Below are positions 53,160-64,000 of a DNA stretch of 64,000 nucleotides, piece after piece. Below the pieces are notes generated by a model. It was given only the letters and a program-made list of their open reading frames with translations. It had not been told where the DNA came from and searched no databases. The stretch comes from Filimonas lacunae (GTDB taxonomy: Bacteria; Bacteroidota; Bacteroidia; Chitinophagales; Chitinophagaceae). Location: assembly GCF_002355595.1 (NCBI RefSeq), contig NZ_AP017422.1, forward strand, positions 5,460,823 through 5,524,822. Reading direction: 5' to 3'. Made by a program: the position numbers and the translations under genes. Position 1 is the stretch's first letter. Each line of letters begins with the position of its first letter.

Positions 53160-53180
53160 AAAGCGGCATTAAGCCGCTTT
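53160..53180 (-). terminator. terminator after aroC, end of the aromatic cluster
   Basis: 8-bp stem AAAGCGGC / GCCGCTTT, followed on the minus strand by TACTTTTTTG, 41 nt past the aroC stop. Confidence 0.8.
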
Positions 53181-53221: not shown

Positions 53222-54229
53222 TTACGCCTGTTTTACAACCCTGCCAATTCTTTGTTCCAATAATAACAGATCTGTAAACACCATAGCAGTAACGGCTTCC
53301 AGCACCACAGGTACGCGAAGCGCTATACACAAATCATGGCGCCCTTTTACGGAGAAGGTTTCCACTTCATTTGTTTCACTATTCCAGGTATGCTGCTCTT
53401 TAGGAGTAGAAGAAGTAGGCTTGATAGCTATACGGTACACCATTTCATTACCATTGGTAATGCCACCTACTATACCACCTGCGTGGTTAGTAACCGTTTT
53501 ACCGGTGCTGTCTGCAATGGCATCATTATGCTCCACGCCAAACATACGGGCAGATGCAAAGCCGGTACCAAATTCAATACCACGTACCGCAGGAATAGCA
53601 AATGCAGCATGTGCCAGCAACGATTCTGCGCTGTCAAAAAAGGGTTCTCCTAATCCAACAGGCAATCCTTGTACACGACACTCTACAATACCACCAATAC
53701 TGTCTTTGGCATCAATGGCTTTTTGCAAACCCTTTTCCAGGTCAGCTTCACCACCAATTTCCAATATAGTAGCAGCAGTGCTGATATCTAAAGTAGCCAG
53801 TAATTTTTTGGCAATAACACCAGCCGCCACCAGGCAAACTGTAAGGCGCCCGCTAAAATGGCCGCCACCTCTGAAATCTTCATAGCCACCAAACTTTTTA
53901 CCGGCTACAAAATCGGCATGTCCCGGACGGGGCACGGCACGCTGTTTCTGGTAATCGCCACTGCGGGTGTTATTGTTTTCGAATAATATAGTCAAAGGCG
54001 CACCCGTAGTAATATTGTTGAATACGCCACTTTTAAAAATAGGTAAGTCTGTTTCCTGACGTGGTGTAGTTCCTTTTTGGGTACCACCTTTGCGTCTTTC
54101 AATATCAGCGAGAAAATCATCTACTGATAAGGGCAAACCGGCAGGAACGCCATCTATGTTAATACCCACGCTTTCACCGTGAGATTCTCCGAATATCGTT
54201 ACTTTAAAAATGCGACCAAATGAATTCAT
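53222..54229 (-). CDS. aroC: chorismate synthase
   Basis: FMN-dependent last step of the shikimate pathway, EPSP to chorismate. Landmarks: FKVTIFGESHGESVGINIDG at the N-terminus, RPGHADFVAGKKFGGYEDFR near 108, GGHFSGRLTVCLVAAG, EFGTGFASARMFG and GRHDLCIALRVPVVLEA near the end. 335 aa, slightly short but complete. Last gene of the cluster, 42 nt after aroA, with its own Shine-Dalgarno-like site. Confidence 0.97.
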   Translation of the reverse strand: MNSFGRIFKVTIFGESHGESVGINIDGVPAGLPLSVDDFLADIERRKGGTQKGTTPRQETDLPIFKSGVFNNITTGAPLTILFENNNTRSGDYQKQRAVPRPGHADFVAGKKFGGYEDFRGGGHFSGRLTVCLVAAGVIAKKLLATLDISTAATILEIGGEADLEKGLQKAIDAKDSIGGIVECRVQGLPVGLGEPFFDSAESLLAHAAFAIPAVRGIEFGTGFASARMFGVEHNDAIADSTGKTVTNHAGGIVGGITNGNEMVYRIAIKPTSSTPKEQHTWNSETNEVETFSVKGRHDLCIALRVPVVLEAVTAMVFTDLLLLEQRIGRVVKQA

Positions 54230-54271: not shown

Positions 54272-55573
54272 TTACCCTTCTATTTTTACCGCCGCACCCA
54301 GCTTTTGCAGGTGCTCGTAAAAGTCAGGATAAGATTTACTAATGGCACCTGCTTCTTCAATCACCGTTTCTCCTTCTGCCTGTAAAGCTGCTACCGCACA
54401 AGCCATAGCAATACGGTGGTCGTGACGGGAGTGTACTGTTGCACCATCCACGCCTTCTCCTCCTTTCACCAGCATCAGATCGCCCTGTAGCACCACTTCC
54501 ACACCCATTTTACCAAACTCATCCTGTAAGGTTAAAGCACGGTTACTTTCTTTATGTGTTAAACGGCTAACCCCTTCAATAGCAGAAGTACCATTACAAT
54601 AGGCAGCTAATGCCACTAAAGGCGGAAACAGGTCAGGACAATCAGTAGCATTAAAATGAAACGGCTGTAAATCTGCTTTTAAAGAAGGGCCTATTTCAAT
54701 ACTATCCTGTTGCACACTTAACAAACAACCTGTATCCATTAAAGCCTGTAGTATGGCTTTGTCGGCCTGTGTAGAATACGGATCAAGCCCTTTTACTACA
54801 ATTCTTCCTTCCGCTGCAATAGCACCTGCTACCAGCAGAAAAGCACCACCGCTCCAATCACTTTCTACAGTATAATATAAAGGCGATTCATCTTCCTCCT
54901 CTTCTTCTAATGGTGGAAAATAAAAAGCTTCGTAATTGTGGTTTTCAGGAACCACCAATCCAAAATCTTCCATCACTTTTAAAGTGAGGTCTATATAAGG
55001 ACGACTTTTTAAATCATGTACTACAATCGTAACATTGCTGGCCTTGGCTGCGGAATAAGCCATTAACAACCCTGTTAAAAACTGAGAGCTTAATGAGCCA
55101 TCAATTTCTATATTACGCGGTTGCAAAGGACCTTTTATTACCAGGGGCAGCCTGCCGTCGTTCGACTGGATATCTACGCCTAAACGTGGCAATGTATCAT
55201 CAAAGAAATCCATAGGCCTGTTTACCAGGCTTCCCTGCCCTTCAATACGAATGGGGTTAGGGTTTAATGCTACCAATGGGGCAAACATGCGAATACCTAA
55301 ACCACTTTCGCCACAGTTTACTACGCTGTTTACAGCATGCACACCTTTGCTGTTCACCACCAGCTCTTCTTCATCAGCAGATACAATAGTAGCTCCCAAA
55401 GCCTGTATCACGGTAAGCGCTGCTTTATCGTCGTTAGAATGACCCGGGTTTTCAATAATGCTTTCGCCTTTTCTTACCAGGGCAGCCGCACAGGCACGTT
55501 GCATAGAGCTTTTAGAAGCAGGCGCTGTAATTGCACCTGTAACTGTGGAAGGTTGTATAGTAACTATATCCAT
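54272..55573 (-). CDS. aroA: 3-phosphoshikimate 1-carboxyvinyltransferase (EPSP synthase)
   Basis: Joins shikimate-3-phosphate and PEP. 433 aa two-domain inverse alpha/beta barrel. Landmarks: APASKSSMQRACAAALVRKG (start of site), NCGESGLGIRMFAPLVAL near 90, DGSLSSQFLTGLLMAYSAA near 160, and the DHRIAMACAVAALQAEG helix near 382. The Glu-rich segment LEEEEEDESPLYYTVE is an unusual acidic insert before the central strand. Start is 5 nt after the aroB stop. Confidence 0.96.
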   Translation of the reverse strand: MDIVTIQPSTVTGAITAPASKSSMQRACAAALVRKGESIIENPGHSNDDKAALTVIQALGATIVSADEEELVVNSKGVHAVNSVVNCGESGLGIRMFAPLVALNPNPIRIEGQGSLVNRPMDFFDDTLPRLGVDIQSNDGRLPLVIKGPLQPRNIEIDGSLSSQFLTGLLMAYSAAKASNVTIVVHDLKSRPYIDLTLKVMEDFGLVVPENHNYEAFYFPPLEEEEEDESPLYYTVESDWSGGAFLLVAGAIAAEGRIVVKGLDPYSTQADKAILQALMDTGCLLSVQQDSIEIGPSLKADLQPFHFNATDCPDLFPPLVALAAYCNGTSAIEGVSRLTHKESNRALTLQDEFGKMGVEVVLQGDLMLVKGGEGVDGATVHSRHDHRIAMACAVAALQAEGETVIEEAGAISKSYPDFYEHLQKLGAAVKIEG

Positions 55574-55578
55574 TATTC

Positions 55579-56613
55579 TTATTTGGAAGGTTGGGCTAAC
55601 TTTTTAACAATAGGTTCAATTTGTTGCGGAGTTAAAGGAGTAACTACTCCTTTGCCAATTTTTTCCAGCAACACATAATGTATCACACCTTTTACACGCT
55701 TTTTATCGCTTTGCATTACCTGCATTGCTTTTACGGCATCAAATTCAGCAAAAGCAGGCAGGCCATACTTTTGAATCATACTTACCAGCTTTTCTACCTC
55801 CTTAAACTTTTTATATTCAGCAGAAAGAGCAGCAGCCACCACCATGCCCAGCGCTACTGCCTGGCCATGAGATAACTCGTAGCTGTTTTCAATGGCATGT
55901 CCCAGCGTGTGTCCGAAGTTGAGTAGTTTACGATCACCTTGTTCAAACTCATCCTGCTGCACCACTTTCGATTTCAGCAACGCGTTTCGCTGAATCAGCT
56001 GGTTCAGCAATACCTTGTCTTTTTGAAAAGCAGTGAGTTTGTTTTCTTCCAATAGCTTAAACATGGCGGCATCTTTAATACAGGCATGTTTAATAATTTC
56101 AGCAAACCCATTCACCCACTCTTCTTTAGGCAGCGATTTTAATAAAGAGTAATCGTACAGCAAAAACGAAGGCTGCCTTATAAGGCCTACCATGTTTTTA
56201 TAAATACCTACATCAATACCGTTTTTACCACCAATGGAAGCATCTACCATAGCCAGTATGGTAGTAGGCACAAAGCCTACCTGTATACCCCGCATGTATA
56301 TGCTGGCAATATATCCTGTAATATCAGTTACTACACCTCCACCTACACCTACCAGGCACGATTTACGATCGGCTCCCAATTCAATTAACTGATCAATTAC
56401 AGAGTCAACAGTGGCCTGTACTTTATAAGCTTCGCCTGCCTTTAATACAATAGTGCGCCAGTTGGTAAACTTGCGTTTATGTTTGGCAAACACATTTTCA
56501 TCAGTAATAATAAAAGTATTGTCCGGGTTGGTTAACTCAGCCAGCTTATCCAGCGAAGCATCAAAATAATAGTTAACCGTTTGCGAAGAGAAGGTAATTT
56601 TCTTAGTGGTCAT
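55579..56613 (-). CDS. aroB: 3-dehydroquinate synthase
   Basis: NAD- and Zn-dependent cyclisation of DAHP to 3-dehydroquinate. Landmarks: NAD-binding VGVGGGVVTDITGYIASIYM, VPTTILAMVDASIGGKNGID, EIIKHACIKDAAMF, and the zinc ligands in NFGHTLGHAIE and LSHGQAVALGM. 344 aa. Its ATG shares the sequence ATGA with the stop of the upstream Y1 transposase gene, so translation of the two is probably coupled. Confidence 0.96.
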   Translation of the reverse strand: MTTKKITFSSQTVNYYFDASLDKLAELTNPDNTFIITDENVFAKHKRKFTNWRTIVLKAGEAYKVQATVDSVIDQLIELGADRKSCLVGVGGGVVTDITGYIASIYMRGIQVGFVPTTILAMVDASIGGKNGIDVGIYKNMVGLIRQPSFLLYDYSLLKSLPKEEWVNGFAEIIKHACIKDAAMFKLLEENKLTAFQKDKVLLNQLIQRNALLKSKVVQQDEFEQGDRKLLNFGHTLGHAIENSYELSHGQAVALGMVVAAALSAEYKKFKEVEKLVSMIQKYGLPAFAEFDAVKAMQVMQSDKKRVKGVIHYVLLEKIGKGVVTPLTPQQIEPIVKKLAQPSK

Positions 56614-57038
56614 AAATGCGCATTCATTTTATCAAACGCTTCCAGTTCCTGTTCCAGCGTTTTGCCGGCATGAAACTGTTCCTGCTTCAAAATGTAATCA
56701 GATGCCTTATCTATGGTAGTGGGACTTACAGAATAAGCTGCATAGTGTTCGTTCCATTCAAATGGCTGTAGCAGCAATTTATTCTCATTTAACCAGAAAG
56801 CAGTCATCTCTTTCAGCTGTTTAATAATGCCCGACAGATTTTGTACAGGCATCATTTTAAACAAACAGTGAATATGATCGGCTACTCCATTAATGGTAAC
56901 AAGCTGAATGCCTTTGGCATTCGCTTCCTGCTGCGTGTGCACAAACAAAACTTTGCGCACAGGCAACGAAAGTAATGGCTGGTTATCTTTTACCGCCCAC
57001 AAGGCGTGTACGTATATAAAGGATTTTGTACCAGTCAT
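56610..57038 (-). CDS. Y1 (HUH) transposase of IS200/RAYT type inside the aro cluster
   Basis: 142 aa single-strand DNA transposase-fold protein. The metal-binding HUH motif is DHIHCLF at about 54-60 (His-Ile-His); the catalytic Tyr lies in KASDYILKQEQFH near 120; the helix SGIIKQLKEMTAFWLNE and NEHYAAYSVSP complete the family core. All key residues are present. It starts 1 nt after the DAHP synthase stop and overlaps aroB by 4 nt (ATGA), leaving no room for the hairpin ends an IS200 needs. No TnpB partner. Domestication is therefore likelier than a live insertion; it may act on DNA elsewhere or have become a regulator. Confidence 0.88.
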   Translation of the reverse strand: MTGTKSFIYVHALWAVKDNQPLLSLPVRKVLFVHTQQEANAKGIQLVTINGVADHIHCLFKMMPVQNLSGIIKQLKEMTAFWLNENKLLLQPFEWNEHYAAYSVSPTTIDKASDYILKQEQFHAGKTLEQELEAFDKMNAHL

Positions 57039-57039
57039 T

Positions 57040-58131
57040 TTAGGCGTTCATAATCCGGTTCTGATGATTGATACTTTCCATGTGAACAGCATCAAAATAC
57101 TTGGTAATGAACTCTTTGCTTAAACCTTGCTTATCACCTTTGGCATAAGCCCTTTCCAGGATCTCGTTCCAACGGTTGGTTTGCAGGATGGTAATGTTGT
57201 TGTCTTTTTTGTACTGGCCAATTTTTTCAGCCACCTTCATACGCTGACCCAGAATTTGCATCAGTTCGTCATCCAGGTGATTAATTTGCTGACGCAGTTT
57301 TTCCAATGCAGCATGGTATTCTTCAGAAGAAGAATCTTCTTTACGCCATGTAATGTTATCCAGCATTTCGCCTAAACGGGCAGGAGTAATTTGTTGTTTG
57401 GCATCGCTCCAGGCATTATCCGGATCAATATGCGATTCGATAATTAAACCGTCGAAGTCCAGATCAATAGCTTTTTGAGCTACATCCTGTAAAATGTCTC
57501 TGCGACCGCAGATATGAGAAGGATCATTAATAATCATTAACTCGGGGTAGCGGCGTTTCATTTCAATAGCCAGGTGCCACATGGGAGCATTACGGTATTC
57601 TGTGTTACCATAGCTGCTGAATCCACGGTGGATTAAACCAATTTGTTTGATACCTGCTTTTGCAATACGCTCTACCGCACCTAACCACAATTCCAGATCG
57701 GGATTGATAGGGTTTTTAATCAGTACCGGAATATCCACACCTCTTAAAGCATCCGCAATTTCCTGAACGCTGAAAGGGTTTACAGTAGTGCGGGCGCCAA
57801 TCCATGCAACATCTACATCAAAATGCAGTGCATCTTCTACCTGCTTGGCAGTAGCTACTTCCACAGCTACAGGCATACCCGTAATTTTTTTTGCTTGTTG
57901 TAACCACGGTAAACCTTTGGTTCCAATACCCTCAAAACTTCCCGGGCGGGTACGAGGTTTCCAGATGCCGGCACGCATAATATCCACTTTGCCGGTCTTT
58001 TGCAGTTCAGTAGCAGTTTGCAACACCTGTTCTTCTGTTTCGGCGCTGCAGGGTCCTGCAATAATCAAAGGACGTTTTCCCCATTTTTGCTGTACCACTT
58101 CTTTCATGGTGGTTGCATTTGTCGCTTCCAT
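57040..58131 (-). CDS. DAHP synthase / chorismate mutase fusion
   Basis: First enzyme of the aromatic pathway (PEP + erythrose-4-phosphate to DAHP) fused to chorismate mutase, which commits chorismate to Phe/Tyr. 363 aa. DAHP synthase part at about 1-255: PLIIAGPCSAETEEQVL, RAGIWKPRTRPGSFEG, GARTTVNPFSVQEIADAL, IHRGFSSYG, NDPSHICGRRD. AroQ-type mutase at about 270-355: LEKLRQQINHLDDELMQILG and RMKVAEKIGQYKK. The fusion lets the mutase product prephenate inhibit the synthase in known relatives. The 5' region carries a large folded element. Confidence 0.95.
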   Translation of the reverse strand: MEATNATTMKEVVQQKWGKRPLIIAGPCSAETEEQVLQTATELQKTGKVDIMRAGIWKPRTRPGSFEGIGTKGLPWLQQAKKITGMPVAVEVATAKQVEDALHFDVDVAWIGARTTVNPFSVQEIADALRGVDIPVLIKNPINPDLELWLGAVERIAKAGIKQIGLIHRGFSSYGNTEYRNAPMWHLAIEMKRRYPELMIINDPSHICGRRDILQDVAQKAIDLDFDGLIIESHIDPDNAWSDAKQQITPARLGEMLDNITWRKEDSSSEEYHAALEKLRQQINHLDDELMQILGQRMKVAEKIGQYKKDNNITILQTNRWNEILERAYAKGDKQGLSKEFITKYFDAVHMESINHQNRIMNA

Positions 58132-58137
58132 ATATTG

Positions 58138-58236
58138 TTAAGTTGAATGGTTAAAAAATATTCCAGGGCTAACAGGTTAATATCGATTAAGATTGAACCT
58201 GGCCGACCCTGACCATAAGTCAACCATTCAACTTAA
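58138..58236 (-). promoter_or_regulatory. structured element before the DAHP synthase gene
   Basis: A perfect 15-bp inverted repeat (58138-58152 with 58222-58236) encloses a second, imperfect hairpin whose clear parts are CAGGG/CCCTG and AGGTT/AACCT. On the minus strand the inner hairpin is followed by GGAATATTTTTT, like an intrinsic terminator, and the outer 3' arm ends 6 nt before the ATG. The outer and inner stems overlap in the T-run, so they may be alternative folds. It fills almost the whole 111-nt gap. Terminator for the helicase transcript, attenuator, or a palindromic repeat are all possible. Confidence 0.65.
58177..58227 (-). CDS. possible 16-residue leader peptide before DAHP synthase
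   Basis: ATG at 58227 opens MVDLWSGSARFNLNRY and stops, with one Trp, one Phe and a terminal Tyr codon. It lies inside the folded element above, so a ribosome on it would change the fold. The aromatic codons are single and could be chance. Weaker than the pheA leader. Confidence 0.3.
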   Translation of the reverse strand: MVDLWSGSARFNLNRY

Positions 58237-58242
58237 TCTATC

Positions 58243-59922
58243 TTAACGACTGTTAGCGTCGTTCATTCTAATTCTTCTTCCTTTATAGTTTTTACCGTCG
58301 ATTGCCTTAATCATTTGTCCGGCAGAACGCTTGTCAATCTCCACCCAGCTGTTCATCTCCTTCATATCAATTCTACCCAGTACATCCTTTCTTAAATCGC
58401 TCATATCCAGGATAAACTGTAAAAAACTAGCCTTGTAAAAACCATCTTTGGTACCCAGGTTCACAAACAATCTGGTAAAATCGCCATTGTTGTTAAACTC
58501 CTTGCGAACACCACCTTCACGGCTTTCTCTTCTTCTGTCGCCGCCTGCTACAGGTCCGCTGGCTCCATCTCTGCCACGGGTTCTTCTTTCTTCTGTTCTT
58601 ACGTTCAGATCGGCAGAATTTTCGTAGTATTTCAGGAAACGGTCAAACTCCATAGCTGCCACACGCTTCAGCACTTCCTCTTTGGTTACATCGGCAAACT
58701 TTTCTTCCAGCATAGGCACATACGTTTCGTAGTCGCCATGGCTGATATCCGTTTGCAGTAATCTGTCCATGAAAGAAAAGAACTGCTTGCGACAAACATC
58801 CTTACCAGATGGTATTTCCAGTTTATGGAAAGGAGCCTGCACAATTTTCTCAATTTGTCTCAGCTTAAACAATTCCCTGCTGTGTACAATGCTCATACAA
58901 ACACCGGTGTTACCCGCGCGACCTGTACGGCCACTTCTGTGTGTGTAAACTTCTACGTCATCAGGCAATTCAAAGTTGATAACGTGTGTAATACCCTGTA
59001 CGTCTATCCCTCTTGCCGCAACGTCTGTGGCAATCAGCAACTGCAGGGTTTTATCCCTGAACTGCCCCATTACCTTATCACGCTGGCCCTGGGTTAAATC
59101 GCCATGTAACGCATCAATATCATATCCTTCGCGTGTTAACCTTTCCGTGATCTCCTGAGCATCGGCCTTGGTACGGGTAAAAATGATACCGTAAATACCA
59201 GGGTTAAAATCAATCAATCTCTTTAAAGCCTCATACCTGTGCTGCGCCGACACTACAAAATACTGGTGATCGATGCTTTTGTTAGCAGTGTTCACCTTAC
59301 CTACCTGCACTTCTACAGGATCGTTCATGTAGCGCTTGCTCACCTTCTTAATTTCAGGCGGCATGGTAGCACTAAATAACCAGGTACTTTCGCGTTTAGG
59401 TGTGTTCTTCAGAATAAATTCAATGTCGTCCTGGAAACCCATGTTCAGCATTTCATCAGCCTCATCCAGTACCACATATTTAATTTGTTCCAGGTTGATA
59501 GCTTTACGCTCAATCAGATCAATTAATCTGCCTGGCGTTGCCACCACAATCTGAACACCCCTTTTTAAATCACGTATTTGCAGGCCGATGGAGGTACCTC
59601 CATATACAGCCGTTACAGCCACGCTTGTCATATGTTTTTTAAAGAGCTCTATTTCTTTTACTATCTGTAAACATAACTCGCGGGTTGGACAAACCACCAA
59701 CGCCTGCGGGTGTTTAGCCTGTGCATCAATCACATTTAGCAGCGGTAATCCAAATGCTGCTGTTTTGCCCGTACCTGTCTGCGCCAGACCAATAAAATCT
59801 GTAGTGCCTCCTAATAATACAGGAATAGCCTTTTCCTGTATTGCCGTGGGATTGACGTAACCTAATTCACTGGTAGCCTTTACCAGTCTTTCGTCCAATC
59901 CCAATTCTGCAAATGTTGTCAT
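58243..59922 (-). CDS. DEAD-box RNA helicase with DbpA-type C-terminal domain
   Basis: ATP-dependent RNA helicase of about 559 aa, likely in ribosome assembly or RNA decay. Motifs in order: Q motif (TSELGYVNPTAIQEKAIPVL), Walker A AQTGTGKTAAFGLP, PTRELCLQI, DEAD in VLDEADEMLNMGF, SAT in FSATMPPE, ATDVAARGIDVQG and HRSGRTGRAG. After a basic linker the last ~75 residues (FVNLGTKDGFYKASFLQFIL) form the DbpA RNA-binding domain. I start at 59922 (MTTFAELGL), which is preceded by a good -7 box. Its place inside an amino acid cluster is unusual. Confidence 0.94.
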   Translation of the reverse strand: MTTFAELGLDERLVKATSELGYVNPTAIQEKAIPVLLGGTTDFIGLAQTGTGKTAAFGLPLLNVIDAQAKHPQALVVCPTRELCLQIVKEIELFKKHMTSVAVTAVYGGTSIGLQIRDLKRGVQIVVATPGRLIDLIERKAINLEQIKYVVLDEADEMLNMGFQDDIEFILKNTPKRESTWLFSATMPPEIKKVSKRYMNDPVEVQVGKVNTANKSIDHQYFVVSAQHRYEALKRLIDFNPGIYGIIFTRTKADAQEITERLTREGYDIDALHGDLTQGQRDKVMGQFRDKTLQLLIATDVAARGIDVQGITHVINFELPDDVEVYTHRSGRTGRAGNTGVCMSIVHSRELFKLRQIEKIVQAPFHKLEIPSGKDVCRKQFFSFMDRLLQTDISHGDYETYVPMLEEKFADVTKEEVLKRVAAMEFDRFLKYYENSADLNVRTEERRTRGRDGASGPVAGGDRRRESREGGVRKEFNNNGDFTRLFVNLGTKDGFYKASFLQFILDMSDLRKDVLGRIDMKEMNSWVEIDKRSAGQMIKAIDGKNYKGRRIRMNDANSR

Positions 59923-59940
59923 GAAATTCAATATTTGCCG

Positions 59941-59948
59941 CAAAGGTA
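59941..59948 (-). promoter_or_regulatory. -7 box before the helicase gene
   Basis: TACCTTTG on the minus strand fits TAnnTTTG and lies 19 nt before the helicase ATG, near the tyrA 3' end. No -33 match at the usual distance. It suggests a promoter inside the cluster. Confidence 0.55.
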
Positions 59949-59954
59949 ACCCAT

Positions 59955-60803
59955 TCACCCTCTATTTAGCACTTTCCTTATCTTATTGGCATTTTCTATT
60001 AATTCCTGCAGGTATTCGTAGTTCTCTTTTTCCAGGCAAGCCTTAAATTTTCGCAGCTGGGCAATATGCTCATTCAGCACGTCCAGCACGTTATCGCGGT
60101 TTTGCCTGAAAATAGGCACCCACATAGCCGGGTTACTTTTGGCAAGGCGCACCGTGCTTTCAAAACCACCGCTGGCCAGCTCAAAAATGGCATCTTCTTC
60201 CTTTTCCTTCTCCAAAACCGTGTTGGCGAGGGCAAAAGAGGTGATATGCGAAATATGGCTGATATAGGCCACATGCACATCGTGAGCCACCGCATTCATA
60301 TACACAATGTGCATTCCCAGCACGCCGTACACCTTTTCTACCAGTGCCAGCGCATCTGCGTCGCACTTCTCTTTATCACATATAACAGTCGCTTTTTTAA
60401 CAAAAGCTTCTTTTACGGCAGCCGCAGGACCGCTGTATTCCGTACCCCACATAGGGTGCGTGGGCACCATCCGGCCCCTTAAAGCAGCGTCAGCCACTAC
60501 TTCAGCAATTCCCGCCTTGGTACTGCCTACATCCATTACCACCTGTTTGCTGGTAATAAGCCCCATTACGGTTGGCAATAATTGCAGGCAAACGCCTACC
60601 GGCACAGCCAGAATAATAAGGTCCGATTGCGGAATAGCAGCTTCCAGCGTAGCAATTTCATCTACCAAACCCAACTCCAGAGCCTGCTTACAGTGTTCGG
60701 CATTGGCGTCAACACCAATAACACGCATAGCAAAGCCCTTTTCCTTCAAGGCCAGCGCCATTGACCCACCGATTAATCCTATCCCTGTTACTGTTATTAC
60801 CAT
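59955..60803 (-). CDS. tyrA: prephenate dehydrogenase
   Basis: NAD(P)-dependent oxidative decarboxylation of prephenate for tyrosine. 282 aa. Rossmann start ITVTGIGLIGGSMALALKEK... (MVITVTGIGLIGGSMALALK), then LIILAVPVGVCLQLLP, MDVGSTKAGIAEVV, THPMWGTEYSGP and the catalytic-helix AYISHISHITSFALA near 185. No ACT or fused mutase domain; the mutase is on the DAHP synthase. The 126-nt gap after the aminotransferase gene has a 7-bp inverted repeat (AAAGTGG/CCACTTT) but no clear box. Confidence 0.94.
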   Translation of the reverse strand: MVITVTGIGLIGGSMALALKEKGFAMRVIGVDANAEHCKQALELGLVDEIATLEAAIPQSDLIILAVPVGVCLQLLPTVMGLITSKQVVMDVGSTKAGIAEVVADAALRGRMVPTHPMWGTEYSGPAAAVKEAFVKKATVICDKEKCDADALALVEKVYGVLGMHIVYMNAVAHDVHVAYISHISHITSFALANTVLEKEKEEDAIFELASGGFESTVRLAKSNPAMWVPIFRQNRDNVLDVLNEHIAQLRKFKACLEKENYEYLQELIENANKIRKVLNRG

Positions 60804-60929: not shown

Positions 60930-62102
60930 TTATTGTTTTATACGCTTAATAGCTTCCTCAAATCTTTCAATAGAACCACATAAACTTATCCGTATATACT
61001 TATCCCCGTTGCTGCCAAAAATGCCACCAGGGGTAATAAACACATTATTATTATATAACACCTTATCACTAACAGCATAACCATCTTTCTCTCCCGCTGG
61101 TATGGCAGCCCATATAAACAAGCCTACCTGGTCTTTGGAATAAGTGCATTGCAACACATCCAGCATTTCATATACCTTTTCCCTTCTGGCCCTGTACACC
61201 TTATTCACTTCATTATACCAGTCGGCACCCAACGTTAAAGCTTTGGCAGCCGCCAGTTGCATGGGCAAAAACATGCCGCTGTCCATATTCGTTTTAAAAC
61301 GTAGCACCTCTTCAATACGCTCTTTGGCACTGCATAACACACCTAAGCGCCAGCCCGCCATATTGTGGCTCTTACTTAACGAGTTTAACTCAATAACCCT
61401 GTTTTTAGCACCTTCCACACTTAACATGCTGGCAGGTTTGTCATTTAATATAAAACTATACGGGTTGTCGTGTATAATAAGAATGTCGTGTTTTTCAGCA
61501 AAAGCCACCAGCTGCTGCCACAATTCAGGCGTAGCTAATTGCCCTGTAGGCATATGCGGATAGTTTACAAACAGGCCACGCACTCCTTTAAAAGGCGCTT
61601 GCGCATATTGTGCCACCAGTTCGTCCAGTTTGTCAAAATCGGGCATCCAGTTATTTTCTCCTTCCAGGTTGTAATACACGGGCGTTGCACCCGATAATTT
61701 CACCGCGCTGGAATAAGTAGGATAGCCAGGATTAGGCACCAACACTGCCACGCCTTCTTCAAAATAGGTCATACATATATGCATAATACCTTCCTTGCTA
61801 CCTATCAGCGGCAACACTTCTGTATCTGCATTTAACGCCACACCATACCACTGCTGATACCAATCGGCAAACGCTTTGCGCAAGATGGGAGAGCCCTTAT
61901 AATTCTGGTAACCATGCACACCAGGCTTCGCAGCTTCTTCCTGTAACACCTTTATCACATCCGGATGCGGTGGTAAATCAGGACTACCAATGCCCAGGTT
62001 AATGATGCTTTTACCTTGTTTATTCAGCTCGTCAATCTCTCTCAGTTTCGTAGAGAAATAATACTCTCCTATTCCATCCAGCCTTTTTGCAGTTGCTATC
62101 AT
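60930..62102 (-). CDS. class I/II PLP aminotransferase
   Basis: 390 aa fold-type I aminotransferase. PLP Lys in NSLSKSHNMAGWRLGV near 237; YPHMPTGQLATPELW and IIHDNPYSFI are the usual neighbouring blocks; N-terminus DGIGEYYFSTKLREIDELN. It resembles aspartate and LL-diaminopimelate aminotransferases. Between pheA and tyrA it most likely transaminates phenylpyruvate and hydroxyphenylpyruvate, completing Phe and Tyr synthesis; other substrates are possible. Confidence 0.88.
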   Translation of the reverse strand: MIATAKRLDGIGEYYFSTKLREIDELNKQGKSIINLGIGSPDLPPHPDVIKVLQEEAAKPGVHGYQNYKGSPILRKAFADWYQQWYGVALNADTEVLPLIGSKEGIMHICMTYFEEGVAVLVPNPGYPTYSSAVKLSGATPVYYNLEGENNWMPDFDKLDELVAQYAQAPFKGVRGLFVNYPHMPTGQLATPELWQQLVAFAEKHDILIIHDNPYSFILNDKPASMLSVEGAKNRVIELNSLSKSHNMAGWRLGVLCSAKERIEEVLRFKTNMDSGMFLPMQLAAAKALTLGADWYNEVNKVYRARREKVYEMLDVLQCTYSKDQVGLFIWAAIPAGEKDGYAVSDKVLYNNNVFITPGGIFGSNGDKYIRISLCGSIERFEEAIKRIKQ

Positions 62103-62140: not shown

Positions 62141-62974
62141 TTAAACGGTTTGGCCTTTACGATACACTCCGTATACTTTCACCTCTTCTACCAACGGCTT
62201 CATGGTGTCAATTACGGTGTTGAACTGATCCAATGTATCAAACTCCATATCGGCATGAAAACTATATTTCCAGTCGCTGCCCGGTATAGGAAAGCTCTGC
62301 AGCTTGCTTAAGTTAATGCCACCCGCTGCAATAGCCGTTAACACACGGGCCAGGCTGCCACGGGAATGATCTGTTTCAAAGTTTACCGAAGCCTTGTTGG
62401 AATCCGCTACCGGAGGCAAAGCATCTTCTTCCCTTTCCAAAACCAGGAAACGGGTATAGTTATTCTGTAGTGTATGAATATTAGGAGCCAGCACATCGAG
62501 ATTAAACAGTTCGGCAGCTCGTTTACTGGCAATACCAGCTGCATGCTTGTTTTTGTGCTGGTGAATATGTTTGGCGCTTAAAGCGGTGTCTTCGGTTTCT
62601 ACCAGCTTCCAGTTGTATTTTTCCAGGAAAGCAATACATTGTAATATGGCCATCGGGTGCGAATGCACTTCCCTGATATCTTCCAGCGTTACTCCCGGGT
62701 TCACCAGCAGGTTTTGCTGTATTTGCAGGTATACTTCACCCGTAACGCGTAAGTTGCTCTTTTGCAGCAGGTTATAGTTGGGTAAAATACTGCCGGCTAT
62801 AGAGTTTTCAATAGCCATAATTCCGCCTTCACTCTCCTTTTTATCAGCAGCAATTTTTACTACATCCCTAAAGGTGGCACAGGGTATTACCTGTACGTCT
62901 TTGCCGAAAAATTGCTCTGCAGCTACCTGGTGAAAGCTGCCTTCGTACCCTTGTATGGAAATTCTTTGTGCCAT
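62141..62974 (-). CDS. pheA: prephenate dehydratase
   Basis: Converts prephenate to phenylpyruvate. 277 aa. Catalytic domain at about 1-180 with SIQGYEGSFHQVAAEQFFG at the N-terminus, GGIMAIENSIAGSILPNY, and the TRF motif in LQNNYTRFLVLERE. ACT-type control domain at about 195-275 (SRGSLARVLTAIAAGGINL), the usual Phe feedback site. No mutase domain. First structural gene of the cluster; the terminator U-tract of the attenuator abuts its ATG. Confidence 0.96.
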   Translation of the reverse strand: MAQRISIQGYEGSFHQVAAEQFFGKDVQVIPCATFRDVVKIAADKKESEGGIMAIENSIAGSILPNYNLLQKSNLRVTGEVYLQIQQNLLVNPGVTLEDIREVHSHPMAILQCIAFLEKYNWKLVETEDTALSAKHIHQHKNKHAAGIASKRAAELFNLDVLAPNIHTLQNNYTRFLVLEREEDALPPVADSNKASVNFETDHSRGSLARVLTAIAAGGINLSKLQSFPIPGSDWKYSFHADMEFDTLDQFNTVIDTMKPLVEEVKVYGVYRKGQTV

Positions 62975-63010
62975 AAAACAAAAAACTCCCGGCCTTTGAA
63001 GACCGGGAGT
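62975..63010 (-). terminator. attenuator terminator directly before pheA
   Basis: Read on the minus strand: ACTCCCGGTCT pairs with AGGCCGGGAGT (11 bp, one T-G wobble, loop TCAA; 63010-62985), followed by TTTTT-G-TTTT ending at 62975. The pheA ATG starts at 62974. A terminator in this place only makes sense as a regulated one. Confidence 0.9.
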
Positions 63011-63057
63011 GTATGCTGATTGTTTTTAATTTTCATTTAGACAATACAACCCGGTCT
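63000..63057 (-). promoter_or_regulatory. antiterminator pairing of the pheA leader
   Basis: AGACCGGG (63057-63050, codons 21-23 of the leader) is perfectly complementary to CCCGGTCT (63007-63000), the upstream arm of the terminator. Forming it destroys the terminator. A competing earlier hairpin CTACTTT-ACCC-AAAGTAG (63073-63056) covers the Tyr/Phe codons and touches the antiterminator. Confidence 0.85.
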
Positions 63058-63117
63058 ACTTTGGGTAAAGTAGTAAAAGAAGAAAAAGAAAAAGTTGTAT
63101 GTGCCTTTTGTTATCAT
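63037..63117 (-). CDS. Phe/Tyr-rich attenuator leader peptide
   Basis: 26 codons, too short for normal gene calls. It reads MITKGTYN, then six Phe, two Tyr and one Phe codon in a row, then TQSRPGCIV and TAA. In all, 7 Phe and 3 Tyr of 26. The run of control codons (63093-63067) lies just upstream of the antiterminator half. A ribosome stalled there leaves AGACCGGG free; one that reaches the stop covers it. This is the logic of E. coli pheL, but here the neighbouring genes serve Phe and Tyr. There is almost no untranslated leader before it. Confidence 0.88.
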   Translation of the reverse strand: MITKGTYNFFFFFFYYFTQSRPGCIV

Positions 63118-63124
63118 TACTCCT

Positions 63125-63155
63125 CAAAAGTAAGTATAAAGTAATTCCGTCCAAA
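63125..63155 (-). promoter_or_regulatory. promoter of the pheA leader
   Basis: On the minus strand TTTG (63155-63152), 19 bases, TACTTTTG (63132-63125): a full match to the Bacteroidota promoter, with the same 19-nt spacing as rpsF. Transcription would start near 63120, 2-4 nt before the leader ATG. The rest of the 362-nt gap 62975-63336 holds the attenuator, a palindrome at 63170-63191 and the lipoprotein terminator. Confidence 0.75.
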
Positions 63156-63336: not shown

Positions 63337-63543
63337 TTATTTTTTCAGAGTGTCTTTAGCTGCAGCAGCTGAAGAGTCGATTGCTTTTTTAACAGTGTCA
63401 GCTACAGCGCTTACTGAATCTTTCTTAGCAGAAGCTGAAGAATCAATAACGTTTGCAGTAGAATCAGCTTTAGCTTCAGTAGATTCACCAGAACCACAAG
63501 CTGCAAAAGCACCGATCGCTAAAACGAATAACAATTTTTTCAT
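63337..63543 (-). CDS. small Ala/Ser/Asp/Lys-rich lipoprotein
   Basis: 68 aa. MKKLLFVLAIGAFAACGSGE gives a lipobox with Cys at 16; the mature ~53 residues are almost only Ala, Ser, Asp, Lys, Thr and Val, probably helical, and end DTLKK. Its signal region is nearly identical to that of the next gene upstream. No known domain. Codon choice (GCT, GAA) suggests high expression. Size and the C-terminal Lys recall Braun lipoprotein, but there is no sequence match to it. Confidence 0.75.
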   Translation of the reverse strand: MKKLLFVLAIGAFAACGSGESTEAKADSTANVIDSSASAKKDSVSAVADTVKKAIDSSAAAAKDTLKK

Positions 63544-63762: not shown

Positions 63763-63954
63763 TTATTTTTTAGTAGTGTCAGCTACAACTGGAGCAGTAG
63801 TGTCAGCAGCTTTAACAGTAGTGTCAGGAGTTACTGGAGCAACTACAACTGGAGAATCAACTTTAGGAGTAGAATCAGCAGTGTTCTCTTTGTTTTCACC
63901 AGAACCACAAGCAGCGAAAGCGCCCAGAGCTAAAACGAATAATACTTTTTTCAT
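63763..63954 (-). CDS. small Thr/Val/Pro/Asp-rich lipoprotein, paralogue of its neighbour
   Basis: About 63 aa from the ATG at 63954 (an upstream ATG at 63978 adds eight residues). MKKVLFVLALGAFAACGSGE matches the neighbour's signal in all but two residues; the mature part differs, being Pro/Val/Thr-rich (VVVAPVTPDTTVKAADTTAP) and ending in DTTKK. A duplicated export/lipidation part with a diverged tail. Own terminator, so the two genes are separate transcripts or weakly linked. Confidence 0.75.
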   Translation of the reverse strand: MKKVLFVLALGAFAACGSGENKENTADSTPKVDSPVVVAPVTPDTTVKAADTTAPVVADTTKK

Positions 63955-64000
63955 CGTAGGATGTTTTAATAATTTCATATTTATACCCGTAATGGAAAAA

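Follow-up and report, generated by a model that had tools for sequence, protein, structure and literature searches.

What governs the entry of RNA polymerase into the aromatic operon of Filimonas lacunae, whose first gene, pheA, lies directly behind a Phe/Tyr-rich reading frame and a hairpin? The answer proposed here, to which we give a probability of roughly 0.93, is a ribosome-mediated transcription attenuator sensing charged tRNA-Phe and tRNA-Tyr and gating the aromatic operon. This reading draws on the anatomy of the leader, its conservation, the co-variation of its helices, computed structures and the operon context. All coordinates refer to the 64-kb window, i.e. the whole stretch of F. 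lacunae DNA analysed, and the features of the attenuator and operon all lie on its minus strand (Table 1; gene names from NCBIfam and Pfam).

Table 1. Features of the putative attenuator and of the aromatic operon in the window.
Feature	Coordinates	Strand	Basis or remark
-33 element, TTTG	63152..63155	-	Sequence; in most of the family, a TTG precedes the -7 box by 17-20 nt
-7 box, TACTTTTG	63125..63132	-	Bacteroidota sigmaA consensus TAnnTTTG
Leader peptide ORF	63037..63117	-	MITKGTYNFFFFFFYYFTQSRPGCIV, 26 codons then stop; ATG and Phe/Tyr run conserved in relatives
Regulatory run, nine Phe/Tyr codons	63067..63093	-	Sequence
Region 1	63092..63106	-	Predicted partner of region 2 without a stalled ribosome; folds, co-variation
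Region 2	63039..63057	-	AGACCGGG (63057-63050) is the partner of region 3, the overlapping 63052-63039 that of region 1
Region 3 core, CCCGGTCT	63000..63007	-	Common to antiterminator and terminator
Intrinsic terminator hairpin	62985..63010	-	11 pairs, one G-U
pheA, prephenate dehydratase, first gene	62141..62974	-	PF00800, 191 bits
Class I/II aminotransferase, probably aromatic	60930..62102	-	PF00155; operon position conserved
tyrA, prephenate dehydrogenase	59955..60803	-	NF006307, above cut-off
Promoter-like TACCTTTG	59948-59941	-	Near helicase start
DEAD-box RNA helicase	58243..59958	-	NCBIfam
aroF/CM, DAHP synthase fused to chorismate mutase	57040..58131	-	PF00793 and PF01817
IS200-like Y1 transposase-domain protein, within operon	56610..57038	-	PF01797
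aroB, 3-dehydroquinate synthase	55579..56613	-	TIGR01357
aroA, 3-phosphoshikimate 1-carboxyvinyltransferase	54272..55573	-	TIGR01356
aroC, chorismate synthase, last gene	53222..54229	-	TIGR00033
Terminator-like hairpin 3' of aroC, likely operon end	53160..53180	-	Next good terminator-like site on the strand

The -33 and -7 elements were separated by a spacer of 19 nt; sigma-70 promoter scans were set aside because they do not cover the Bacteroidota type of promoter. Ten of the 26 leader codons encoded Phe (7) or Tyr (3), nine of them in one run (FFFFFFYYF), and leaders of the family contained on average 5.9 Phe and 3.8 Tyr codons. Part of region 2 and the core of region 3 were perfect 8-bp complements (AGACCGGG:CCCGGTCT), and the terminator hairpin was followed by a U-tract (TTTTTGTTTT, 62984-62975) ending directly at the pheA ATG (62974). 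The promoter with its 19-nt spacer, the 26-codon frame with its Phe/Tyr run, the pairing of the end of the leader with the first arm of the terminator, and the 11-bp terminator whose U-tract reaches pheA had been read from this DNA in an earlier note, and each was found in place.

Conservation was examined in 86 pheA upstream regions, obtained from PheA searches of 61 relatives and 197 genomes of the class, with a detector requiring an ATG-initiated ORF with at least 6 Phe/Tyr codons within 12 codons, followed by an intrinsic terminator. Fifty-five of the 86 regions were positive across the class, and the detector found nothing in 1,720 block-shuffled sequences or in 228 distal regions lying further upstream. 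In the family of the window, 25 of 26 pheA loci were positive with the strict detector, and in the remaining member (L025) inspection by eye revealed a leader together with a terminator containing a bulge. Among named genomes, 77 of 79 pheA loci were positive, these loci having been chosen by similarity to the query and being mostly from Chitinophagaceae; the nearest was Filimonas zeae (PheA 91% identical). The putative switch is thus conserved and carried by nearly all close relatives, and the persistence of the Phe/Tyr run and of the paired arms, which the earlier note had proposed as a check, was borne out by these loci and by the co-variation described below. Absences did occur in other families of the class (e.g. 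0/7 in family f33), and outside the class, in the same phylum, no Phe/Tyr leader was found at the 29 PheA loci inspected, the best windows containing at most 4 Phe/Tyr codons. In the 7.8-Mb genome itself, runs of seven Phe/Tyr codons occurred at only five places, including pheA; another was a TAC simple repeat, and the three remaining runs, when inspected, did not look like leaders.

RNAalifold, applied to a MAFFT alignment, found no more than 4 pairs of the terminator, since the helices fall out of register from one sequence to the next; for this reason co-variation was assessed helix by helix, comparing the pairing energy of each strand with its own partner and with permuted partners. In the family, own partners gave -19.6, -22.4 and -19.4 kcal/mol for helices 1:2, 2:3 and 3:4, vs. 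-16.7, -19.3 and -15.9 kcal/mol for permuted partners (sd of the permuted means 0.29, 0.25 and 0.18, respectively). The advantage of own partners amounted to 10 to 19 SD over the three helices in the family and to 8-14 SD in other families, values that are not independent-sample statistics because related sequences share changes. All three helices co-vary; drift alone would not favour own partners.

Folding placed a 1:2 helix between region 1 and that part of region 2 which overlaps the antiterminator strand. This predicted helix, absent from the earlier note, completes the switch. The antiterminator had an outer part, GCCGGG:CCCGGC, and in many relatives an inner part, UGUUGA:UCAACA, whose pairing accounts for the conserved AAUCAACAUAA between leader and terminator. 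The fold of the leader was 2.8 SD better than that of shuffled sequences (z-score -2.8), and 1 of 200 shuffles was equally good. Twenty-four leaders were also folded with ribosome footprints masked: in most of the leaders among those listed, the ribosome-free transcript folded into 1:2 plus terminator, the transcript made only up to region 3 with a ribosome in the run folded into the 2:3 antiterminator, and the transcript with a ribosome at the stop codon folded into the terminator. The distance from the end of the run to region 2 was 6-13 nt throughout the relatives, and region 2 should therefore be left free under a stalled ribosome; in the models, a stall in the run freed region 2 and a ribosome at the stop codon covered it. 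When the full-length transcript was folded with a stalled ribosome, the terminator was often still the minimum-energy state, so antitermination would have to be kinetic, with 2:3 forming before region 4 is made. This is also the case in known attenuators.

The steps that we infer from these structures, including the transcription start, termination in vivo and the starvation response with its strength, are as follows. The transcript would begin some 3 nt upstream of the leader AUG. Given sufficient Phe and Tyr, the ribosome would reach the stop codon and cover region 2, and the 3:4 terminator would form before pheA. With Phe or Tyr in short supply, the ribosome would stall in the run and cover region 1, leaving region 2 to pair with region 3; with 2:3 formed there would be no terminator, and RNA polymerase would continue through pheA into the rest of the operon. 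In the absence of translation, region 1 would pair with region 2 and the terminator would form. The ribosome-stalling scheme put forward in the earlier note is supported: the locus combines an ORF rich in codons for the products of the pathway, a terminator before the first gene, a 2:3 antiterminator excluding that terminator, a 1:2 pairing, and a predicted geometry that fits them.

The position of the promoter suggests a short 5' UTR. According to a Flavobacterium psychrophilum transcriptome report, positions -12 to -5 from the transcription start are occupied by the TAnnTTTG box, the median 5' UTR is 24 nt and 5.5% of mRNAs are leaderless (PMC9723704). This rule was used to convert the gap between box and AUG into a 5' UTR, a gap of 4 nt corresponding to a start at the AUG itself. 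In the window the gap was 7 nt (predicted start near 63120, 5' UTR of about 3 nt), and 61 of the 64 named relatives with a strict box had gaps of 4-10 nt (predicted 5' UTR of 0 to 6 nt), exactly 4 nt in 15 of them; the outliers had 1, 15 and 17 nt. With such gaps the leader mRNA is predicted to be leaderless or nearly so in the family of the window; in other families of the class the gap was 15-32 nt in most leaders. In Sinorhizobium meliloti, the transcript of the trpL attenuator leader likewise begins at the leader AUG (PMC7298713), as is predicted, at least nearly, for Filimonas; trpL differs in responding to Trp, in belonging to the Alphaproteobacteria and in having known trans-acting functions.

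In five relatives belonging to four families (L026, L028, L070, L075 and L085), the roughly 360 nt preceding pheA contained two consecutive Phe/Tyr leaders, each with its own terminator; for L075 both of these units, and for L070 the second, were recognised by eye. Such tandem attenuators could widen the range of control. They resemble Salmonella mgtCBR, where two leader ORFs precede one operon in series (PMC3641672), but mgtCBR is not an amino-acid biosynthesis operon and both units of the tandems described here contain Phe/Tyr codons.

Leaders for other amino acids were sought by gene family. Three were found in the same genome (labelled L090-L092), each followed by a terminator-like hairpin: a His leader at hisG (MHIHHHHHILPKR, longer form MNTQMHIHHHHHILPKR; near contig position 5161000), a Trp leader at trpE (MKVQLINKIWWWHTNSCRGW; near contig position 5155000) and an Ile/Val-rich leader at ilvD (near contig position 5570441). 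Of 17 hisG loci, 15 had a His leader, and all 6 loci resembling trpE had a Trp leader; three other loci from the trpE search appear to be pabB-like. The identity of the codons in these putative leaders follows the operon, as attenuation predicts.

Other explanations of the same region were considered. The U-tract adjoins the pheA ATG in the window, and the hairpin might accordingly hide the start site of pheA and be opened by translation of the leader, i.e. translational control without termination. In three relatives which share the leader, hairpin and U-tract (L016, L018 and L023), however, some 40-66 nt separate the terminator from the apparent pheA ATG; hairpin and U-tract are therefore conserved but their proximity to the AUG is not, and we regard this explanation as very unlikely. 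Intergenic terminators are common, and the hairpin could simply end transcription of the upstream gene constitutively, or be the terminator of a gene for a small protein, with amino acids not sensed in either case. This is scarcely credible, given that the upstream gene has its own terminator (63316-63291) and that the leader has a conserved promoter, Phe/Tyr codons and co-varying, competing helices.

A structured 5' region ahead of an amino-acid operon could also be a riboswitch or a T-box, sensing the amino acid or the tRNA directly, with the ORF incidental. No Rfam family reached its threshold in the leader region and no T-box appeared among matches up to E = 5; moreover, the most conserved trait was the reading frame with its Phe/Tyr codons, and codon identity changed with the operon in the parallel His and Trp leaders, which makes direct sensing extremely improbable. 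A further possibility accepts the attenuator as described and adds a function in trans for the terminated leader RNA or peptide, comparable to S. meliloti rnTrpL and peTrpL, since trpL, likewise a leaderless leader, is active in trans (PMC7298713). Nothing in the Filimonas sequence requires such a role, and we consider it quite unlikely. The attenuator acting in cis on pheA and the genes behind it is the reading retained below.

Leader-peptide attenuation is a textbook mechanism. The enterobacterial pheL-pheA system has a Phe-rich leader peptide, competing 1:2, 2:3 and 3:4 helices and an intrinsic terminator followed by pheA, and the Filimonas leader shares the peptide, the three helices, the terminator and pheA behind them. 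Unlike pheL-pheA, it has mixed Phe/Tyr codons and a predicted near-leaderless start, and it precedes an operon that includes tyrA and genes of the common pathway; its score with the Rfam Phe_leader model (RF01859) was 20.9 bits, far below the gathering threshold of 55. A comparative study by Lopatovskaya et al. in 2010 is said to have covered Bacteroidetes and may have predicted such elements earlier.

The earlier note knew of no described pheL-type attenuator in this phylum, a statement that needs correction: the accessible part of the 2021 F. psychrophilum transcriptome report presents strong indications, for the same phylum, that amino-acid operons are attenuated through leader peptides, and describes conserved 5' elements with no match in Rfam at the same genes, pheA and hisG, the mechanism not being worked out in that part (PMC9723704). 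Small ORFs "reminiscent of leader peptides" have been reported in Bacteroides thetaiotaomicron (PMC7366714). The mechanism is thus known and its presence in the phylum was already hinted at; what this analysis adds is the full anatomy, the co-variation, the class-wide extent, the predicted near-leaderless start and the tandem forms. We lean towards the view that much of the class uses ribosome-mediated attenuation as its standard way of controlling amino-acid operons (Phe/Tyr, Trp, His and Ile/Val), with leaders that are near-leaderless in the family of the window and with tandems for the same amino acids having evolved repeatedly. If true, ribosome and RNA polymerase would advance together in a phylum where Shine-Dalgarno initiation is hardly used. 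Since attenuation depends on transcription and translation keeping pace, the pattern across the class would serve as a natural test of coupling in Bacteroidota, whose mRNAs have no Shine-Dalgarno signals; the predicted near-leaderless start would provide a clean system for studying leaderless initiation in Bacteroidota.

The reach of control was assessed from the operon. The order pheA-aminotransferase-tyrA-aroF/CM-aroB-aroA was kept in 10 of 10 family genomes (nine genera), with aroC behind aroA in all nine genomes whose compared stretch extended to aroC. In these ten genomes hardly any strong terminator apart from the attenuator preceded the operon's end: a single further one lay inside aroC of L275, and the rest were upstream of the leader or beyond aroC. 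With the order conserved and hardly any other strong terminator in the way, all genes from pheA to aroC are probably under the control of the attenuator, which supports the suggestion of the earlier note that control may extend down to aroC. A single switch seems to control the common pathway together with both of its branches, and the locus provides a worked-out Phe/Tyr attenuator heading a complete aromatic operon in Bacteroidota. The promoter-like TACCTTTG near the helicase start may feed the distal genes and ensure a basal supply.

Several minor features of the operon and its surroundings were also observed. The position of the DEAD-box helicase gene varied between genera: some had it within the operon, others immediately upstream of the attenuator (L277 and L278 compared). 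The gap between the helicase and DAHP synthase genes (58132-58242, minus strand) contained an inverted repeat, TTAAGTTGAATGGTT ... AACCATTCAACTTAA, with arms about 70 nt apart. The Y1 transposase-domain gene overlapped aroB, and its place was kept in 5 of 11 genomes compared (the window, L272, L273, L274 and L280; 51-86% identity); possibly, the transposase has been domesticated. Upstream of the attenuator, two small lipoprotein-like genes lay in tandem (63337-63543 and 63763-63978, minus strand), with near-identical signal sequences (LFVLAxGAFAACGSGE).
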